Below are positions 3,908 through 37,420 of a stretch of 64,000 nt of DNA, in pieces. The stretch comes from Pedobacter lusitanus. GTDB lineage: Bacteria > Bacteroidota > Bacteroidia > Sphingobacteriales > Sphingobacteriaceae. How positions within the stretch are numbered: the first letter of the stretch is position 1; every line of letters starts with the position of its first letter. Below the pieces are notes generated by a model that saw only the letters and a list, made by a program, of their open reading frames with translations, ran no database searches and had not been told where the DNA came from. A program made the position numbers and the translations under genes. The stretch is from assembly GCF_040026395.1 (NCBI RefSeq), contig NZ_CP157278.1, positions 558,001 through 622,000 on the forward strand, read 5' to 3'.

Positions 3908-4396
3908 ATGGAAGAATTACAAACGCTCGAATTTTATTGGTTAAAGTACGAAGTTAGCGCTATTGAAGAGTTAATTCAAAACTCTGATGGAATAGACAGC
4001 TTTGTATTCTCTTATTACTTTCCTAAATCAGCTAACAGCGTAAAACTATTACAGCTGGTTGCCTACGCACATATGGTGAATAAGGCTCATCCCAAAGGGG
4101 TATTTAGTAAAACCTATGATATCCTGTCTGTTTATGAAAATCAGGCGGAAACAATCAGCGGGCCCGTTATTCTGAGTAATAACATCTTGTCACTGCAGCA
4201 AATGGAAGCATTGATCAATAAACCAGAAAAGCCTGATTATTTAATCTTTATCCCGCATTTAGATAAAGACAAACACATTTATTACAGGATAAGAGGATAT
4301 CATACCCCTGCTGAGCTGGAATTTGCTGCGCAGAGAATGGCAGTATTTGCAGATCCGCCACCCGAACAGACTAATCCTTCCCCGCCTGCTACTTAA
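3908..4396 (+). CDS. Hypothetical soluble protein
   Basis: This 162-residue protein is not recognised. It has no signal peptide or membrane span, a mixed alpha/beta look, a central hydrophobic strand (DYLIFIPHL) and a proline-rich tail (PPPEQTNPSPPAT). A -7 promoter box lies upstream. It ends 18 bases before the membrane-protein gene, so it may belong to the same transcript as the sensor operon, but a strong hairpin shortly downstream (4491-4531) would limit read-through. Confidence 0.6.
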   Translation: MEELQTLEFYWLKYEVSAIEELIQNSDGIDSFVFSYYFPKSANSVKLLQLVAYAHMVNKAHPKGVFSKTYDILSVYENQAETISGPVILSNNILSLQQMEALINKPEKPDYLIFIPHLDKDKHIYYRIRGYHTPAELEFAAQRMAVFADPPPEQTNPSPPAT

Positions 4397-4414
4397 TCAG
4401 AAAAACCATTTTAT

Positions 4415-5080
4415 ATGTTGCATATACTGCAAACTATTCTGGACTGGTCTGAAGTCTGGGCACTATTAATCCCGGCAGCTGTCCTGTTGTATAAAAAACA
4501 ACCGGTTATTCATAAACCGGTTGTTTTTTATGTATGGCTGGCTTTGGTTATTAATATAAGTATTGACACGATCTGGAAATTCAGGAAATATCTTCCCGCC
4601 AGTCTCAGCTCTAACAATTACTTGTATAATCTGCATTCAGTAATCACATTCTTTTTATTCAGTTCATTTTTTATTGGTCTTAAGCAACCATTTATAGTAA
4701 AGATCAAGAAAATTATCCCTTTTGTCTTTATCGTTTTTCTTTTGGTGAATTTTGTTTTTTACGAAAACTTTTTTGATTACTGGCGATTGAGCAGCAGGTT
4801 ATTGTCGGTTGAAGCAATTTTACTCCTGTTTTATTCACTTAGTTATTTTCTGTTTAAGGTTCACGAAAATGTAAATGTGAACATATTCACTACCGACTTC
4901 TGGATTGTCACCGGTCTGGGGTTGTATGTAGCCGTTAATTTTTTTATTTTCCTGTTATACAATGAATTAACGACACACATGATAAATTTCGCAATCAATC
5001 TATGGAATGTACATAATATCTCTTACATCGTTTTTAACCTATTTATAGCTAAAGGATTTTATGGATCTGATAAGCATTGA
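4415..5080 (+). CDS. Seven-span hypothetical membrane protein
   Basis: The 221 residues contain about seven hydrophobic segments separated by short, often charged loops, for example SEVWALLIPAAVLLY, SVITFFLFSSFFIGL and FWIVTGLGLYVAVNFFIFLL. It overlaps the histidine kinase gene by 20 bp, so the two are translationally coupled. The likely role is a membrane sensor or partner of that kinase, which has only one span of its own. I kept the ATG at 4415 because the first segment reads as a real span and no later in-frame ATG exists near the start. A perfect 17-bp terminator-like hairpin lies inside its codons 26-39. Confidence 0.7.
   Translation: MLHILQTILDWSEVWALLIPAAVLLYKKQPVIHKPVVFYVWLALVINISIDTIWKFRKYLPASLSSNNYLYNLHSVITFFLFSSFFIGLKQPFIVKIKKIIPFVFIVFLLVNFVFYENFFDYWRLSSRLLSVEAILLLFYSLSYFLFKVHENVNVNIFTTDFWIVTGLGLYVAVNFFIFLLYNELTTHMINFAINLWNVHNISYIVFNLFIAKGFYGSDKH
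4491..4531 (+). terminator. Perfect terminator hairpin inside a coding region
   Basis: ATAAAAAACAACCGGTT (4491-4507) and AACCGGTTGTTTTTTAT (4515-4531) are exactly complementary over 17 bp around a 7-base loop, with the T6 run of a classical intrinsic terminator. It lies within the membrane-protein gene, about 95 bases after the stop of the preceding gene. Confidence 0.6.
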
Positions 5081-5852
5081 CATCAGGCTTTTTGTTGTGG
5101 TTGGGATTGCAGCGATGTTACTGCTGTTTATAAGCTTTCTATTGATCTTCATCTTTACACAACGCAAAAAATTACAATATCAGAATTCCCTTCAGGCTTT
5201 GAATGAGCAACAAAAGAATCAATTGATAGAAGCTGCAATAAAAAGTGAAGAAACGGAACGTCATCGTATTGCGGAAGAGCTTCATGATGAGGTTGGCGCT
5301 ATACTCGCATCCTCAAAACTGCATTTTCATAGTATCAAACTAGGTACAGGTGAATATAATGAGAGCATTTATAATAAAGCCAGAGAATTACTGGATGAAG
5401 GGATCAAAAAAGTAAGAAACATGTCACACAGCCTGCATTCTGCCATTTTGCAGGAATTTGGGCTGAATGAGGCGATCAGTCACTTTGCCAGTAAAATTGC
5501 ACATGAATCTCTGATCGAGGTAACAACACAACTTGATCATGAGTGTTATCATGACCTTAAAAATGATATCAGTATCTACCGTATTATTCAGGAATTGTTT
5601 AATAATATTATTACGCACGCCAAAGCTTCTAAGATTCACATTGTATCGGAGTATACTGATCAGCAATTACTGATGAAAATTTCACATAACGGTAAAGGTC
5701 TTACCCAGCAGCGTTTTGAAGAACTCAGGTTCGAGAAAAATGGTCTGGGGCTTAAAAACATACAAAACAGGGTTATATTTTTAAAGGGTAAGCTTCTTTT
5801 TTCAGTACAGGAAACAGGTTATCAGATAGACATCTGTATTCCGGTTAATTAA
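5061..5852 (+). CDS. NarL-type sensor histidine kinase
   Basis: This 263-residue protein has one membrane span (about residues 9-33), a short coiled linker, then a HisKA_3 dimerisation domain with the phospho-acceptor His75 in RIAEELHDEVGA. The C-terminal HATPase domain has the N-box QELFNNIITHAK and the G-box NGLGLKNIQNR. It autophosphorylates and signals to the LuxR-type regulator encoded 8 bases downstream. There is no periplasmic sensor domain, so sensing probably uses the seven-span protein whose gene overlaps it by 20 bp. Confidence 0.93.
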   Translation: MDLISIDIRLFVVVGIAAMLLLFISFLLIFIFTQRKKLQYQNSLQALNEQQKNQLIEAAIKSEETERHRIAEELHDEVGAILASSKLHFHSIKLGTGEYNESIYNKARELLDEGIKKVRNMSHSLHSAILQEFGLNEAISHFASKIAHESLIEVTTQLDHECYHDLKNDISIYRIIQELFNNIITHAKASKIHIVSEYTDQQLLMKISHNGKGLTQQRFEELRFEKNGLGLKNIQNRVIFLKGKLLFSVQETGYQIDICIPVN

Positions 5853-5860
5853 ATAAAATC

Positions 5861-6508
5861 ATGGATAAAATAAAAATTGCTATAGCGGATGATTATGCCA
5901 TATTCAGGGACGGCTTAAAAGTAGGCCTGAATCAGGATCAGAATATGGAGGTAACCGTGGAAGCAGGTAACGGGACTGAATTACTGGAAAGACTGGAAAA
6001 AAATGTAGTTGATGTTATCCTGATGGATTTAAGAATGCCTGGTATGGATGGCATGGAAGCCACCAAACGGATCAGAGAGAGATTTGTACAGACGAAAATC
6101 ATTGCTGTCACCTTACATGATGAAGATAGCTTTATAGTCCATTTAATGGAAATAGGTGCAAATGCTTATTTACTAAAAGATGCCGATCCGCTGGATATCA
6201 GAGAAGCAATTTATGCCGTTCACCTGCATGGTTACTACTTTAATGACCTGGTTAATAAAGCTCTTTTGAAAAAATTAATCACCAAAGGGAACTTCAAACC
6301 TGCTTTTAATCAAAAAGTGGAACTTTCAGATCGCGAGCTGGAAGTATTGCAGTTAATCTGTGATGAAAAGACGGCAATTGAAATAGGTACGGAAATATTT
6401 TTAAGTCCGCGCTCCGTAGAAGGTATCAAACAGCGTCTTATTGATAAAATCGGGGTACGCAATACTGCAGGCCTTGTACTGTTTGCGGTAAAAAATGGGT
6501 TGATCTAA
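5861..6508 (+). CDS. LuxR/NarL-family response regulator
   Basis: This 215-residue regulator has a receiver domain with acidic pocket ADDYAIFRDG, phosphorylation site Asp56 in VILMDLRMPGMDG, and a C-terminal LuxR helix-turn-helix from about residue 150 (LSDRELEVLQLI ... SPRSVEGIKQRLIDKIG). It is the cognate partner of the upstream kinase. The likely target is the neighbouring peptide operon beginning at 6674, whose upstream region has repeats but no consensus -7 box, as expected for an activator-dependent promoter. Confidence 0.94.
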   Translation: MDKIKIAIADDYAIFRDGLKVGLNQDQNMEVTVEAGNGTELLERLEKNVVDVILMDLRMPGMDGMEATKRIRERFVQTKIIAVTLHDEDSFIVHLMEIGANAYLLKDADPLDIREAIYAVHLHGYYFNDLVNKALLKKLITKGNFKPAFNQKVELSDRELEVLQLICDEKTAIEIGTEIFLSPRSVEGIKQRLIDKIGVRNTAGLVLFAVKNGLI

Positions 6509-6568
6509 CCTTAGCCGCAAGTTAGTTTAACCCTGTAACTAAGTAGAATTACTCATTTTTTTTAATGC

Positions 6569-6604
6569 GTATATCCACTATGGTGACAACCAGGTTATAT
6601 CCAC
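6569..6604. promoter_or_regulatory. Direct repeats upstream of the peptide operon
   Basis: TATATCCAC occurs at 6570-6578 and again at 6596-6604, 26 bases apart, 70-105 bases upstream of the peptide ATG. The octamer ATGCGTAT (6565-6572), also present inverted at 3808-3815, overlaps the first copy. These are candidate binding sites for the adjacent response regulator. Confidence 0.35.
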
Positions 6605-6673
6605 AACTTTATTCTGTGCAATGAAGCTTCAAATTAACGCACCTAAACAACAATTTATTTAAAAAATTAAATT

Positions 6674-6988
6674 ATGGCAAAGTTAAAATTAACTCATTCA
6701 GAATTAGCAGCACTTGACGCCCTTATTGCAGAATTGCAGGGAGACCACAAAGGAGTCGAAGCTGAAGTTGGAGATCTTAAAGCATTTATTACTGCGGTAG
6801 TAAGAACAGCTGTTCAGGCTACTAAAGTTGCAATAAAAGCTACTCCTTATGTAACTGACATTGTAGAAGTAGCAACTGCTATTTTAGGAAAAGAAACACA
6901 TGATGAAGCCAGCAAATCTTTAGAGAAACATGCTAAAGCTGGTATCAACGTTCAGCAACTAATAGAACTTCGTAAAAAGTTTAATTAA
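6674..6988 (+). CDS. Cysteine-free 104-residue peptide, candidate precursor or cargo of an Sdp-like system
   Basis: I do not recognise a family. The protein has no Cys or Trp, no classical signal peptide and no double-Gly leader. Residues 36-72 form a long amphipathic to hydrophobic stretch (AFITAVVRTAVQATKVAIKA then PYVTDIVEVATAIL), flanked by acidic N-terminal and Lys-rich C-terminal helices. It is the first gene of a unit with an FFAPNP membrane protein, an HTTM/SdpB-like protein and a DCC protein, right after a two-component system. A stable hairpin separates it from the next gene, as in peptide operons where the precursor is made in excess. A toxin or signal role is inference only. Confidence 0.6.
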   Translation: MAKLKLTHSELAALDALIAELQGDHKGVEAEVGDLKAFITAVVRTAVQATKVAIKATPYVTDIVEVATAILGKETHDEASKSLEKHAKAGINVQQLIELRKKFN

Positions 6989-6994
6989 TTACTG

Positions 6995-7030
6995 TTTTAA
7001 GGGCGGGCCTGATTGCACCCGCCTTTAAAA
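6995..7030 (+). terminator. Attenuator-like hairpin between the peptide gene and downstream genes
   Basis: TTTTAAGGGCGGG (6995-7007) pairs with CCCGCCTTTAAAA (7018-7030) over 13 bp with one G-U wobble around a 10-base loop. It starts 6 bases after the peptide stop codon. No long T-run follows, so it may act as a partial terminator or an mRNA 3'-end stabiliser. Confidence 0.6.
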
Positions 7031-7045
7031 TTTAACCTTAACCAC

Positions 7046-7594
7046 ATGACTTCTTCAACAGACATCAGCATTATCTATGAATCCATAGTAGCATGTATTC
7101 TTGCCATATGGTTTCTGCTTACTATTTTGTGTCAGTTCAGGGATACAAAATTTTCAGCCTATATCAGACATACGATTGATATTTTCGGACTAATTCCTTT
7201 ATGGACTTTTTTTGCACCTAATCCCGGAAAAAGTGATTATCATTTATTGTACAGAGATAAAATCGACGATGAAACCAACGGCGACTGGGAAGAAATGGAT
7301 ATCACCGAAGAGCGTTCTTTATGGTCATGGTGCTGGAATCCTGATAAAAGGGATAAAAAAATATTATCAGATGTAATCCAGAGCCTGATCTCAAATATCC
7401 CCCATTATAAAACCGAAAATGGATATGATCTGCTCATGTTTTCTATGCCATACCTGATTGTATTACATGCAGTAAGTCATTGCCGTTGTGAATCGGGCAG
7501 CGCCCAAAGACAGTTTATGCTGGCCGAAACGTCAGGATATCTGAAAGAAGCCCCTCCTTCTGTTATCTTATTATCAGTATTTCACCAAATATAA
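7046..7594 (+). CDS. SdpA-like single-span membrane protein
   Basis: The 182-residue protein has an N-terminal membrane span (about residues 9-29), then the motif PLWTFFAPNPGKSDYHLLYRD (about 51-71), resembling the FF-x-x-NP region of SdpA proteins and of other proteins encoded beside HTTM genes. The rest is soluble, with paired Trp and Cys residues (SLWSWCW, SHCRCES). I placed the start at the ATG at 7046; a TTG 11 codons earlier falls inside the upstream hairpin. In Bacillus, SdpA and SdpB together mature the SDP toxin. The resemblance is by motif and neighbourhood and is not proven homology. Confidence 0.6.
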   Translation: MTSSTDISIIYESIVACILAIWFLLTILCQFRDTKFSAYIRHTIDIFGLIPLWTFFAPNPGKSDYHLLYRDKIDDETNGDWEEMDITEERSLWSWCWNPDKRDKKILSDVIQSLISNIPHYKTENGYDLLMFSMPYLIVLHAVSHCRCESGSAQRQFMLAETSGYLKEAPPSVILLSVFHQI

Positions 7595-7603
7595 ATTTGA
7601 CTT

Positions 7604-8425
7604 ATGATATCTATTATAGAAACCAATCAGCTTATTCTGATTATCCTGAGTATTGGATTATTTATTTCAACGATGGAGTATATCAAAAAGATTCAGATAT
7701 TTTCTTCAACCGGACTGCTTTCCTGGAATGTAATGCAGCTGCGATGGGAGAAAAAAGATCAGGAATCTGTTTTCAGCCCATTATTCAAGCTATTTAATGA
7801 AAAAGGCCTGGCCATTATTTTCGCACTCAGATGCCTGATTATTTTTGGATTATTATTCTTCCCGCTCGAAACAACTTATGGATGGATATTAATCGGTTTG
7901 CTTGGATGCAGCCTGCTGGCAAGCTCAATGATCACCTTTTATGGCAGTGATGGTTCAGATCAGATGAACATGCTGATCATTATTACTTTGTTTCTGTGCC
8001 ATTTCCCTGTAGTTACGGGTTCACGTCTGGCTACTATCGGACTCTGGTTTATAGCTTTACAAACCTGTCTTTCTTATACTGTCGCTGGTATTGCCAAATT
8101 AGTTTCTGCAGAATGGCGTGCTTCTACAGCGATCAAGGATGTATTTTCTACCAAGACTTATGGCTCAAGATGGGCAGCAGTGCTGCTGAAAAAATATCCC
8201 GGAGTAAATGTATTCTTATGCTGGAATGTGATGATTATGGAGACCTTATTTCCTTTATGTCTGATATTGCCTTCCAATTATGCATTGATATTTATTATCT
8301 GGGGATTTTTGTTTCATCTTTTGACGGCTATAATTATGGGGTTAAACTCATTCTTCTGGGCCTTTATGGCAGCATATCCAGCCCTGTTTTATGTCAATCA
8401 TCAAATTCAGGCCTACCTTTATTAA
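7604..8425 (+). CDS. HTTM/SdpB-like polytopic membrane protein
   Basis: This 273-residue protein has about seven hydrophobic segments. Features typical of the HTTM superfamily (vitamin K-dependent carboxylase-like membrane domain, which includes SdpB) are YGSDGSDQM after the third span, SYTVAGIAKLVSAEW followed by a conserved polar stretch, and a late His in FHLLTAIIMGLNSFFWAFMAAYPALF. SdpB helps mature the SDP toxin in Bacillus; other members accompany DCC proteins. It follows the FFAPNP gene by 9 bases and precedes the DCC gene by 14, so they form one unit. The chemistry is unknown. Confidence 0.65.
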   Translation: MISIIETNQLILIILSIGLFISTMEYIKKIQIFSSTGLLSWNVMQLRWEKKDQESVFSPLFKLFNEKGLAIIFALRCLIIFGLLFFPLETTYGWILIGLLGCSLLASSMITFYGSDGSDQMNMLIIITLFLCHFPVVTGSRLATIGLWFIALQTCLSYTVAGIAKLVSAEWRASTAIKDVFSTKTYGSRWAAVLLKKYPGVNVFLCWNVMIMETLFPLCLILPSNYALIFIIWGFLFHLLTAIIMGLNSFFWAFMAAYPALFYVNHQIQAYLY

Positions 8426-8439
8426 ATCAAAAAAGACAA

Positions 8440-8859
8440 ATGGCATCTGCTTTAACTATAAAAAAGGATATTATACTATTTGACGGAATATGCAATTTCT
8501 GTAATAGTTATATCAATTATGTAATCAGTCATGATGAGCATAACAGATTTGTTTTTGCGTCATTGCAAAGTGATACGGCAAAAGAACTATCTGCAGCTCA
8601 TCAGATTGATCTGCAAAGTCTGAACAGCATTATTGTCATACATCATAAAAAGATATTTACCCGGTCTGATGGTATTATCCATATTGCAAAACATTTAAAA
8701 AGTAAATGGTCATGGCTCTTGCTGCTGGCCGGATATATACCTCAGTCAGTCAGAGATTACTTTTACACTTTATTTGCCAACAGACGATATAGCTGGTTTG
8801 GACAGGCAGACAGCTGTATGATCCCGACCAAAGAGGTCAGAGAAAAATTTCTGACCTGA
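8440..8859 (+). CDS. DCC-family (DUF393) thiol-disulfide protein
   Basis: This 139-residue protein begins KDIILFDGICNFCNSYINYV, the defining D-x-x-C-x-x-C motif of DUF393/DCC proteins (Asp15, Cys18, Cys21), and keeps the usual later region RYSWFG near the C terminus. Members are thioredoxin-like and frequently occur with HTTM proteins. I placed the start at the ATG at 8440, directly before the conserved domain. The cargo peptide in this operon lacks cysteine, so the redox partner may be the Cys-containing FFAPNP or HTTM protein instead. That partner assignment is inference. Confidence 0.85.
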   Translation: MASALTIKKDIILFDGICNFCNSYINYVISHDEHNRFVFASLQSDTAKELSAAHQIDLQSLNSIIVIHHKKIFTRSDGIIHIAKHLKSKWSWLLLLAGYIPQSVRDYFYTLFANRRYSWFGQADSCMIPTKEVREKFLT

Positions 8860-37317: not shown

Positions 37318-37420
37318 TTCTTATCAAGAAAGACGGAGGGAAAGGCCCATCGATGTCTTAGCAACCTGTCCGCGACAAGGTGCTAATTCCTTATTATTGC
37401 GCAAGTAATAAAGATAAGTA
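37318..37420 (+). ncRNA. SAM-I (S-box) riboswitch
   Basis: The core features of the S-box aptamer are present in order: P1 arms CTTATC (37320-37325) and GATAAG (37413-37418), kink-turn GACGGAGGGA (37332-37341), GCAACC (37361-37366), P3 stem CCTGTC-CGC-GACAAGG (37365-37380), the conserved AAGGTGCTAATTCC (37377-37390), and a P4 hairpin TTATTA/TAATAA. It senses S-adenosylmethionine. The next coding genes downstream on this strand are a SusC/SusD uptake set, about 400 bases away. Confidence 0.96.

Follow-up and report, generated by a model that had tools for sequence, protein, structure and literature searches.

The 64,000-nt stretch of the Pedobacter lusitanus genome analysed here (contig NZ_CP157278.1, positions 558,001 to 622,000; hereafter the window) carries a conserved, linaridin-like peptide cassette of eight genes at window positions 3908-8859. 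The genome that bears it is a single contig of 6.05 Mb. All features of the cassette lie on the + strand. Its peptide half encodes a 104-residue precursor peptide (6674..6988), a LinL-like protein with an FFAPNP motif and one N-terminal span (7046..7594), an HTTM protein akin to the HTTM portion of LinH (7604..8425) and a DCC1-like thiol-disulfide oxidoreductase (8440..8859; PF04134, E 5e-27). We put at about even the chance that the cassette makes a linaridin-like peptide, with the LinL/HTTM pair binding the two ends of the precursor, likely dehydrating threonines in its middle and releasing a product that is probably antimicrobial.

An earlier, sequence-only reading had described positions 4415-8859 as a variant of the SDP toxin system of Bacillus. 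All the frames that it named were located where it had placed them in a check of open reading frames. Its unit held as drawn, but the 162-residue gene at 3908-4396 also belongs to it, and the DCC protein was confirmed with its gene start corrected to 8440. The general claim, of a Bacteroidota system in which a cysteine-free peptide and an HTTM-type membrane protein stand beside two-component genes in conserved linkage, was borne out. The proposed closeness to SDP was not, as both membrane proteins match the linaridin pair LinL/LinH far better.

The 104-residue peptide was present in 23 of 400 genomes of the order, that of P. lusitanus included. All eight genes occurred together in the 22 other peptide-bearing genomes, so that the cassette is beyond chance and the co-occurrence of peptide and membrane genes, for which the sequence-only reading had proposed a survey, was complete. 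The gene order was that of the window in 20 of these 22 genomes, and in two the regulatory half stood behind the peptide half. Since the outer neighbours, a pseudouridine synthase and a NUDIX gene, were kept in only four of the 22 (within stretches of 12.5-16 kb), the bounds of the cassette were set at 3908-8859. A close HTTM match (E <1e-90) was found in 15 of 301 genomes drawn from the family, all 15 of which had the precursor. The precursor was found in three of 395 genomes drawn from the phylum, and each of the three had the HTTM gene. One further genome of the phylum draw, G676, carried two HTTM copies (E <1e-30) near each other on the same strand and one FFAPNP-type gene, with no precursor match. 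Among named genome contigs Pedobacter cryoconitis was the only relative with the peptide, in a search from which the genome's own and near records were possibly excluded. A literature search with partial coverage found no description of the cassette, which does not show its absence from print.

Profile comparisons placed both membrane proteins with the linaridin pair. The FFAPNP family aligned to LinL over 166 columns (hhalign 99.9%, E 3e-31; the LinL profile spanned 424 columns, the frames of two loci being untrimmed), and the HTTM family aligned to LinH over 259 columns (hhalign 100%, E 2e-49). Used alone, the HTTM protein of the window matched 17 plasmid records (best E 3e-26). The FFAPNP protein alone matched 16 records by tblastn (best E 1e-14), all of them within those 17. 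Eleven of the 17 plasmid loci, with 654 frames, were examined in detail. The FFAPNP-family model detected one LinL frame in 10 of the 11 (E 7e-22 to 3e-31) and no further frame at E 0.05, and a true-SdpA model matched none of the 654 frames. The HTTM model matched 12 frames, a partly circular result, the loci having been picked by HTTM. Small PxxxTP or PxxxSP frames were located near the HTTM gene in eight of the 11 loci; with three random-looking ones left out, PxxxTP precursors were judged by eye to be present in five, Streptomyces loci among them. The Streptomyces loci encoded a protein of ~180-195 residues with an FFAPNP-type motif. In two of them HTTM was fused to an alpha/beta hydrolase, in four a hydrolase was annotated nearby, and three had a methyltransferase and an ABC transporter. 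These plasmid loci fit linaridin clusters as described in part of PMC9927463, where LinL, the HTTM protein crdG, the hydrolase crdE and PxxxTP are given as cluster parts and 561 clusters are cited, mainly from Actinobacteria. No hydrolase was annotated in the stretch shown of two plasmids, one from Rhodococcus with a LinL-HTTM pair and one from Paroceanicella, where the HTTM gene follows a gene of 139 residues.

In a tree of 30 HTTM proteins, a branch with support of 99/98 split 13 window-type and eight LinH proteins from nine rows linked to SdpB or DUF5819; several branches of this tree are long and nine of its rows have an odd letter composition. Nine positions were invariant in the 21 window-type and LinH rows (Gln153, Tyr158, Gly162, Lys165, Trp171, His238, Leu247, Phe250 and Pro259), and a G-x-D-G-x-D-Q stretch was kept in 17-20 of the 21, depending on the column. 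Tyr158, Lys165, Trp171, His238 and Phe250 were invariant also in a mixed set of 23 that included SdpB, and are thus markers of the wider family. Profile searches against solved structures returned nothing for either protein. A structure prediction of the LinL-like protein from a two-row alignment reached a mean predicted local distance difference test score (pLDDT) of 37, too poor for a fold search. As judged from these alignments, the FFAPNP and HTTM-like proteins are homologues of LinL and of the HTTM part of LinH, over nearly their full length.

The peptide, recognised by its conservation across loci and by its homologues, is a modular precursor with conserved ends around a more variable middle. 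It consists of an N-end motif (residues 1-23), a linker, a middle block (38-72), a second linker and a C-end motif (91-104). Mean pairwise identity over the 23 loci (20 distinct rows) was 0.78 in residues 1-23, 0.46 in 24-37, 0.60 in 38-72, 0.46 in 73-90 and 0.83 in 91-104. The middle block (6785..6889) is the predicted core, chosen by its variable flanking linkers, charge and helical moment, and its ends are candidates. Its charge is +1 to +3 and the part preceding it is acidic (-3 to -4). For the first 18 residues of the block the helical hydrophobic moment is 0.52, a value reached in 1.1% of shuffles; in three relatives, shuffles were as high in at most 0.4% of cases for two and in 7% for one. 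Threonine makes up 17% of the core, against 6.3% in the long frames of the window, and Ala-Thr-Pro at 56-58 was invariant in all 23 loci. Wherever the synonymous rate (dS) was computable and non-zero in the six pairs among four close relatives, the nonsynonymous rate (dN) was lower. Cysteine was absent from the precursor in all 23 window-type loci, in agreement with the sequence-only reading, and hydropathy revealed no hydrophobic segment. The precursor matched no Pfam or NCBIfam family and found no match in the plasmid records. Its predicted structure (mean pLDDT 44 from a 30-row alignment) was likewise not good enough to search for similar folds.

Similar ends flank a different middle in diverged loci, as far as Polaribacter. 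In a blind test, a profile made from the window-type precursors alone was applied to 259 frames taken from 15 diverged loci. The best four frames (E 6e-7, 3e-5, 2e-4 and 0.003; the next frame 0.58) were those directly upstream of the FFAPNP gene in three organisms. They correspond to a 92-residue precursor in Mucilaginibacter frigoritolerans, two tandem genes of 127 and 141 residues in Pedobacter frigoris and a 154-residue precursor in Polaribacter huanghezhanensis. The DCC gene, which was found in all 22 relatives, is also present in the Polaribacter locus.

In linaridins, threonine and serine are dehydrated, and homologues of HTTM, hydrolase and LinL are held responsible in the part of PMC9927463 concerned, which calls the exact mechanism unclear; a passage of PMC7794033 reports that LinH or LinL is thought to perform the dehydration. 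We propose that the two conserved ends of the precursor act as leader and follower that would recruit it to the membrane pair of LinL-like and HTTM proteins. The chemistry would fall to the HTTM protein, with the LinL-like protein as its partner, and by homology the two would target threonines in the precursor middle, for which dehydration is the likely modification. The core that then leaves the cell would be some 35 residues long or would start at the invariant Ala-Thr-Pro. The DCC protein may ensure that thiols in the membrane pair stay in their proper state. The response regulator would switch on the precursor promoter, and a hairpin behind the precursor gene may hold its transcript in excess over those of the enzymes.

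The cassette shares further traits with linaridin clusters: the precursor is short, abounds in Ala, Val and Thr and has an A-T-P or F-T-P site, and there is no dedicated protease. Linaridin clusters, however, carry LinL and LinH or a separate HTTM protein and alpha/beta hydrolase, whereas the cassette has no hydrolase, methyltransferase or ABC transporter. It also differs in its DCC protein, two-component system and Bacteroidota host, and in a precursor of 104 residues that is unrelated in sequence and has a conserved C-end. Several results weigh against a linaridin-like product. Pfam found no alpha/beta hydrolase among the eight cassette proteins (the genome outside the cassette was not searched), and the ABC transporter LinT is not among the eight conserved genes. 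Neither an export route nor an immunity gene was identified. Thr-Pro was invariant in 23 of 23 precursors, yet they have no PxxxTP motif, there being no Pro four residues before the Thr. Precursor profiles had no significant match to linaridin precursors (best E 0.07). Only Thr57 of the core threonines was invariant, Thr61 being kept in 19 of the 23 and the others in 9-17. Among the diverged precursors, both of P. frigoris contain cysteines (one and two), and that of Polaribacter has only 8% Thr in its middle and a C-end match that alone was not significant (-0.2 bits). Lacking the hydrolase, the transporter and the PxxxTP motif, the system is linaridin-like and not a linaridin by definition. 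A narrower proposal, which we make tentatively and hold less likely than not, is that LinL-like and HTTM proteins by themselves, with neither hydrolase nor transporter, form a minimal membrane machine by which a cationic helical core lying between leader and follower is dehydrated (or epimerised) and set free.

The membrane pair could instead only excise and release the precursor middle, as SdpA and SdpB do with SdpC, with no side-chain chemistry. We consider this unlikely, although SDP and its paralogue YitPOM of Bacillus subtilis also combine a peptide with an SdpB-family HTTM protein and a small partner. According to parts of PMC6818787, the SDP toxin is likewise excised from a longer precursor, the rest of which, but not the toxin part, is common to YitM and SdpC; here, too, the ends are kept and the middle varies. 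The relationship of the HTTM protein to SdpB, which the sequence-only reading had wanted checked, was detected (TIGR04033, E 7e-7) at 29.1 bits, below the curated cut-off of 178.4, and the HTTM family aligned to true SdpB (hhalign 98.6%, E 1e-15). Its counterpart for the FFAPNP protein was not, as that protein had no match to the SdpA models TIGR04034 or PF17418 and only a sub-threshold one to DUF5819 (E 0.088). Compared with true SdpA, the FFAPNP family (13 rows) gave 6.2% in hhalign, a seven-row subset against one SdpA 64%, and hidden Markov model searches E 0.006 at best, consistent at most with remote kinship. The FFAPNP protein is instead close to LinL and the HTTM tree groups the window protein with LinH. 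Unlike SdpC, the window-type precursor has neither signal peptide nor cysteine. No SdpC-type precursor was recognised, the peptide having no hydrophobic segment and no family match, and SdpI was not found in the genome. By sequence comparison, SdpA and SdpB appear to be distant kin only of the window pair.

With a limit of E 0.1, the SdpB model matched 20 of 23 aligned HTTM relatives, and TIGR04034 and DUF5819 matched four and five of 22 aligned FFAPNP partners, respectively. The matches being so split, the aligned sets of relatives include true SdpAB and DUF5819 pairs besides window-type ones. Some Bacteroidota genomes do have true SdpA and SdpB pairs (SdpA models, E to 2.5e-32). In other Bacteroidota, a short frame whose start is signal-like lies near DUF5819/SdpB-type pairs, upstream on the same strand; these are possibly other peptide systems.

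The regulatory half of the cassette begins with p162 (3908..4396), a soluble protein of 162 residues. It is followed by a multi-span membrane protein (4415..5080), likely the sensor part, whose gene overlaps that of a HisKA_3-type histidine kinase with one N-terminal span (5061..5852; HisKA_3, HATPase_c), and by a LuxR/NarL-type response regulator (5861..6508; Response_reg, GerE). All four were found in the 22 relatives. Pfam and NCBIfam confirmed kinase and regulator as first read. The 4415-5080 product is multi-span as claimed, with five hydropathy peaks >1.5 against the seven spans proposed. No significant Pfam or NCBIfam match was found for p162, the multi-span protein or the peptide; as a guess, p162 may be an immunity or sensing partner. 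Among the 301 family genomes, the multi-span protein was matched in 50 (E <=0.001), 28 of them with E <1e-40, of which 15 had the precursor and 13 lacked it. P162, multi-span protein, kinase and regulator stood together in nine of the 13 precursor-less loci and as a partial set in four, and no peptide-cassette gene was detected within the 12-14 kb examined. The two-component genes do adjoin the peptide unit, as the sequence-only reading had it, but the module also stands without peptide genes, which suggests that it is independent and was joined to them. It probably senses an outside or envelope signal and not the peptide. The multi-span gene of P. cryoconitis S3M1 is interrupted by an in-frame stop, and in this strain only residues 1-86 of p162 are matched.

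These results bear on the possibility that the peptide is not antimicrobial and is itself a signal, regulator or immunity factor, the pair modifying or exporting a pheromone. The precursor lies directly behind the two-component system in 20 of the 22 loci, its middle is fairly conserved in the family (0.60) and no immunity gene was recognised, all of which favours such a role. However, the module occurs without peptide genes (9/13), the diverged precursor loci have no such module, and the middle is a cationic amphipathic block that differs widely between subfamilies. A role of this kind seems improbable to us.

That the HTTM protein carboxylates precursor glutamates with a quinol, in the manner of vitamin K-dependent gamma-carboxylases (VKGC), is very improbable. 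In favour, its Lys165 aligns with a lysine of Bacteroidota VKGC proteins, suggesting a deprotonating lysine, and the precursor has invariant Glu10, Glu29 and Glu98. Against it, G-x-D-G stands in the aligned stretch where VKGC has the His of NHYYF, the VKGC lumenal domain has no counterpart (0.4%), and the VKGC membrane domain shows only weak direct similarity (37.7%, E 3e-4), and none to LinH (0.6%). The window protein and VKGC share the HTTM fold family through a chain of profiles, with lysine and histidine (FH) positions aligned. By its motif, Lys165 would be the counterpart of Lys218 of GGCX. Lys218 is given as the active base of human GGCX in a passage of PMC9146348. The idea of a split GGCX, with the LinL-like protein as the detached VKGC lumenal domain, gave no signal (0.4%; LinL 0.4%) and was dropped. 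In Bacteroidota VKGC loci a long frame, TonB-dependent-receptor-like by eye, adjoined the VKGC gene in 10 of 10.

Alignment of the 23 regions upstream of the precursor gene revealed conserved elements (6538..6631), ACTACGTAGAAATACT and CTTTATGTTGTGCAA-GAAGCTTCA, which are predicted to be a promoter and a regulator site. Inverted repeats were rejected as regulator sites, as a clear dyad, AATACTCA...TGAGTATT, was prominent in only some of the 23. Directly 3′ of the precursor gene, a G+C-rich hairpin with a T tail (7002..7032), a predicted partial terminator, was found in all 23 window-type loci, against 53 of 920 dinucleotide shuffles. Its sequence varies across loci and its pairing is kept. Stricter scanning, with shorter loops, missed the window hairpin, and none was found in two diverged loci examined. 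An Rfam scan found no match within the cassette; elsewhere in the window it detected a SAM riboswitch (37318-37420; RF00162, E 6e-19).

One membrane fold appears to link the maturation of SDP with that of linaridins and, at a greater distance, with vitamin K carboxylation. With LinL and HTTM proteins and no hydrolase, the cassette would make the core reaction testable with two proteins and one short substrate. If the minimal LinL-HTTM machine is real, it would represent a new class of ribosomally synthesised and post-translationally modified peptides in Bacteroidota, and the HTTM fold, which carries out carboxylation in GGCX, would be a general peptide-modifying fold common to linaridins, SDP and this system. 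The two-ended motif of the precursor may also serve as a handle in searches for unannotated Bacteroidota peptides.

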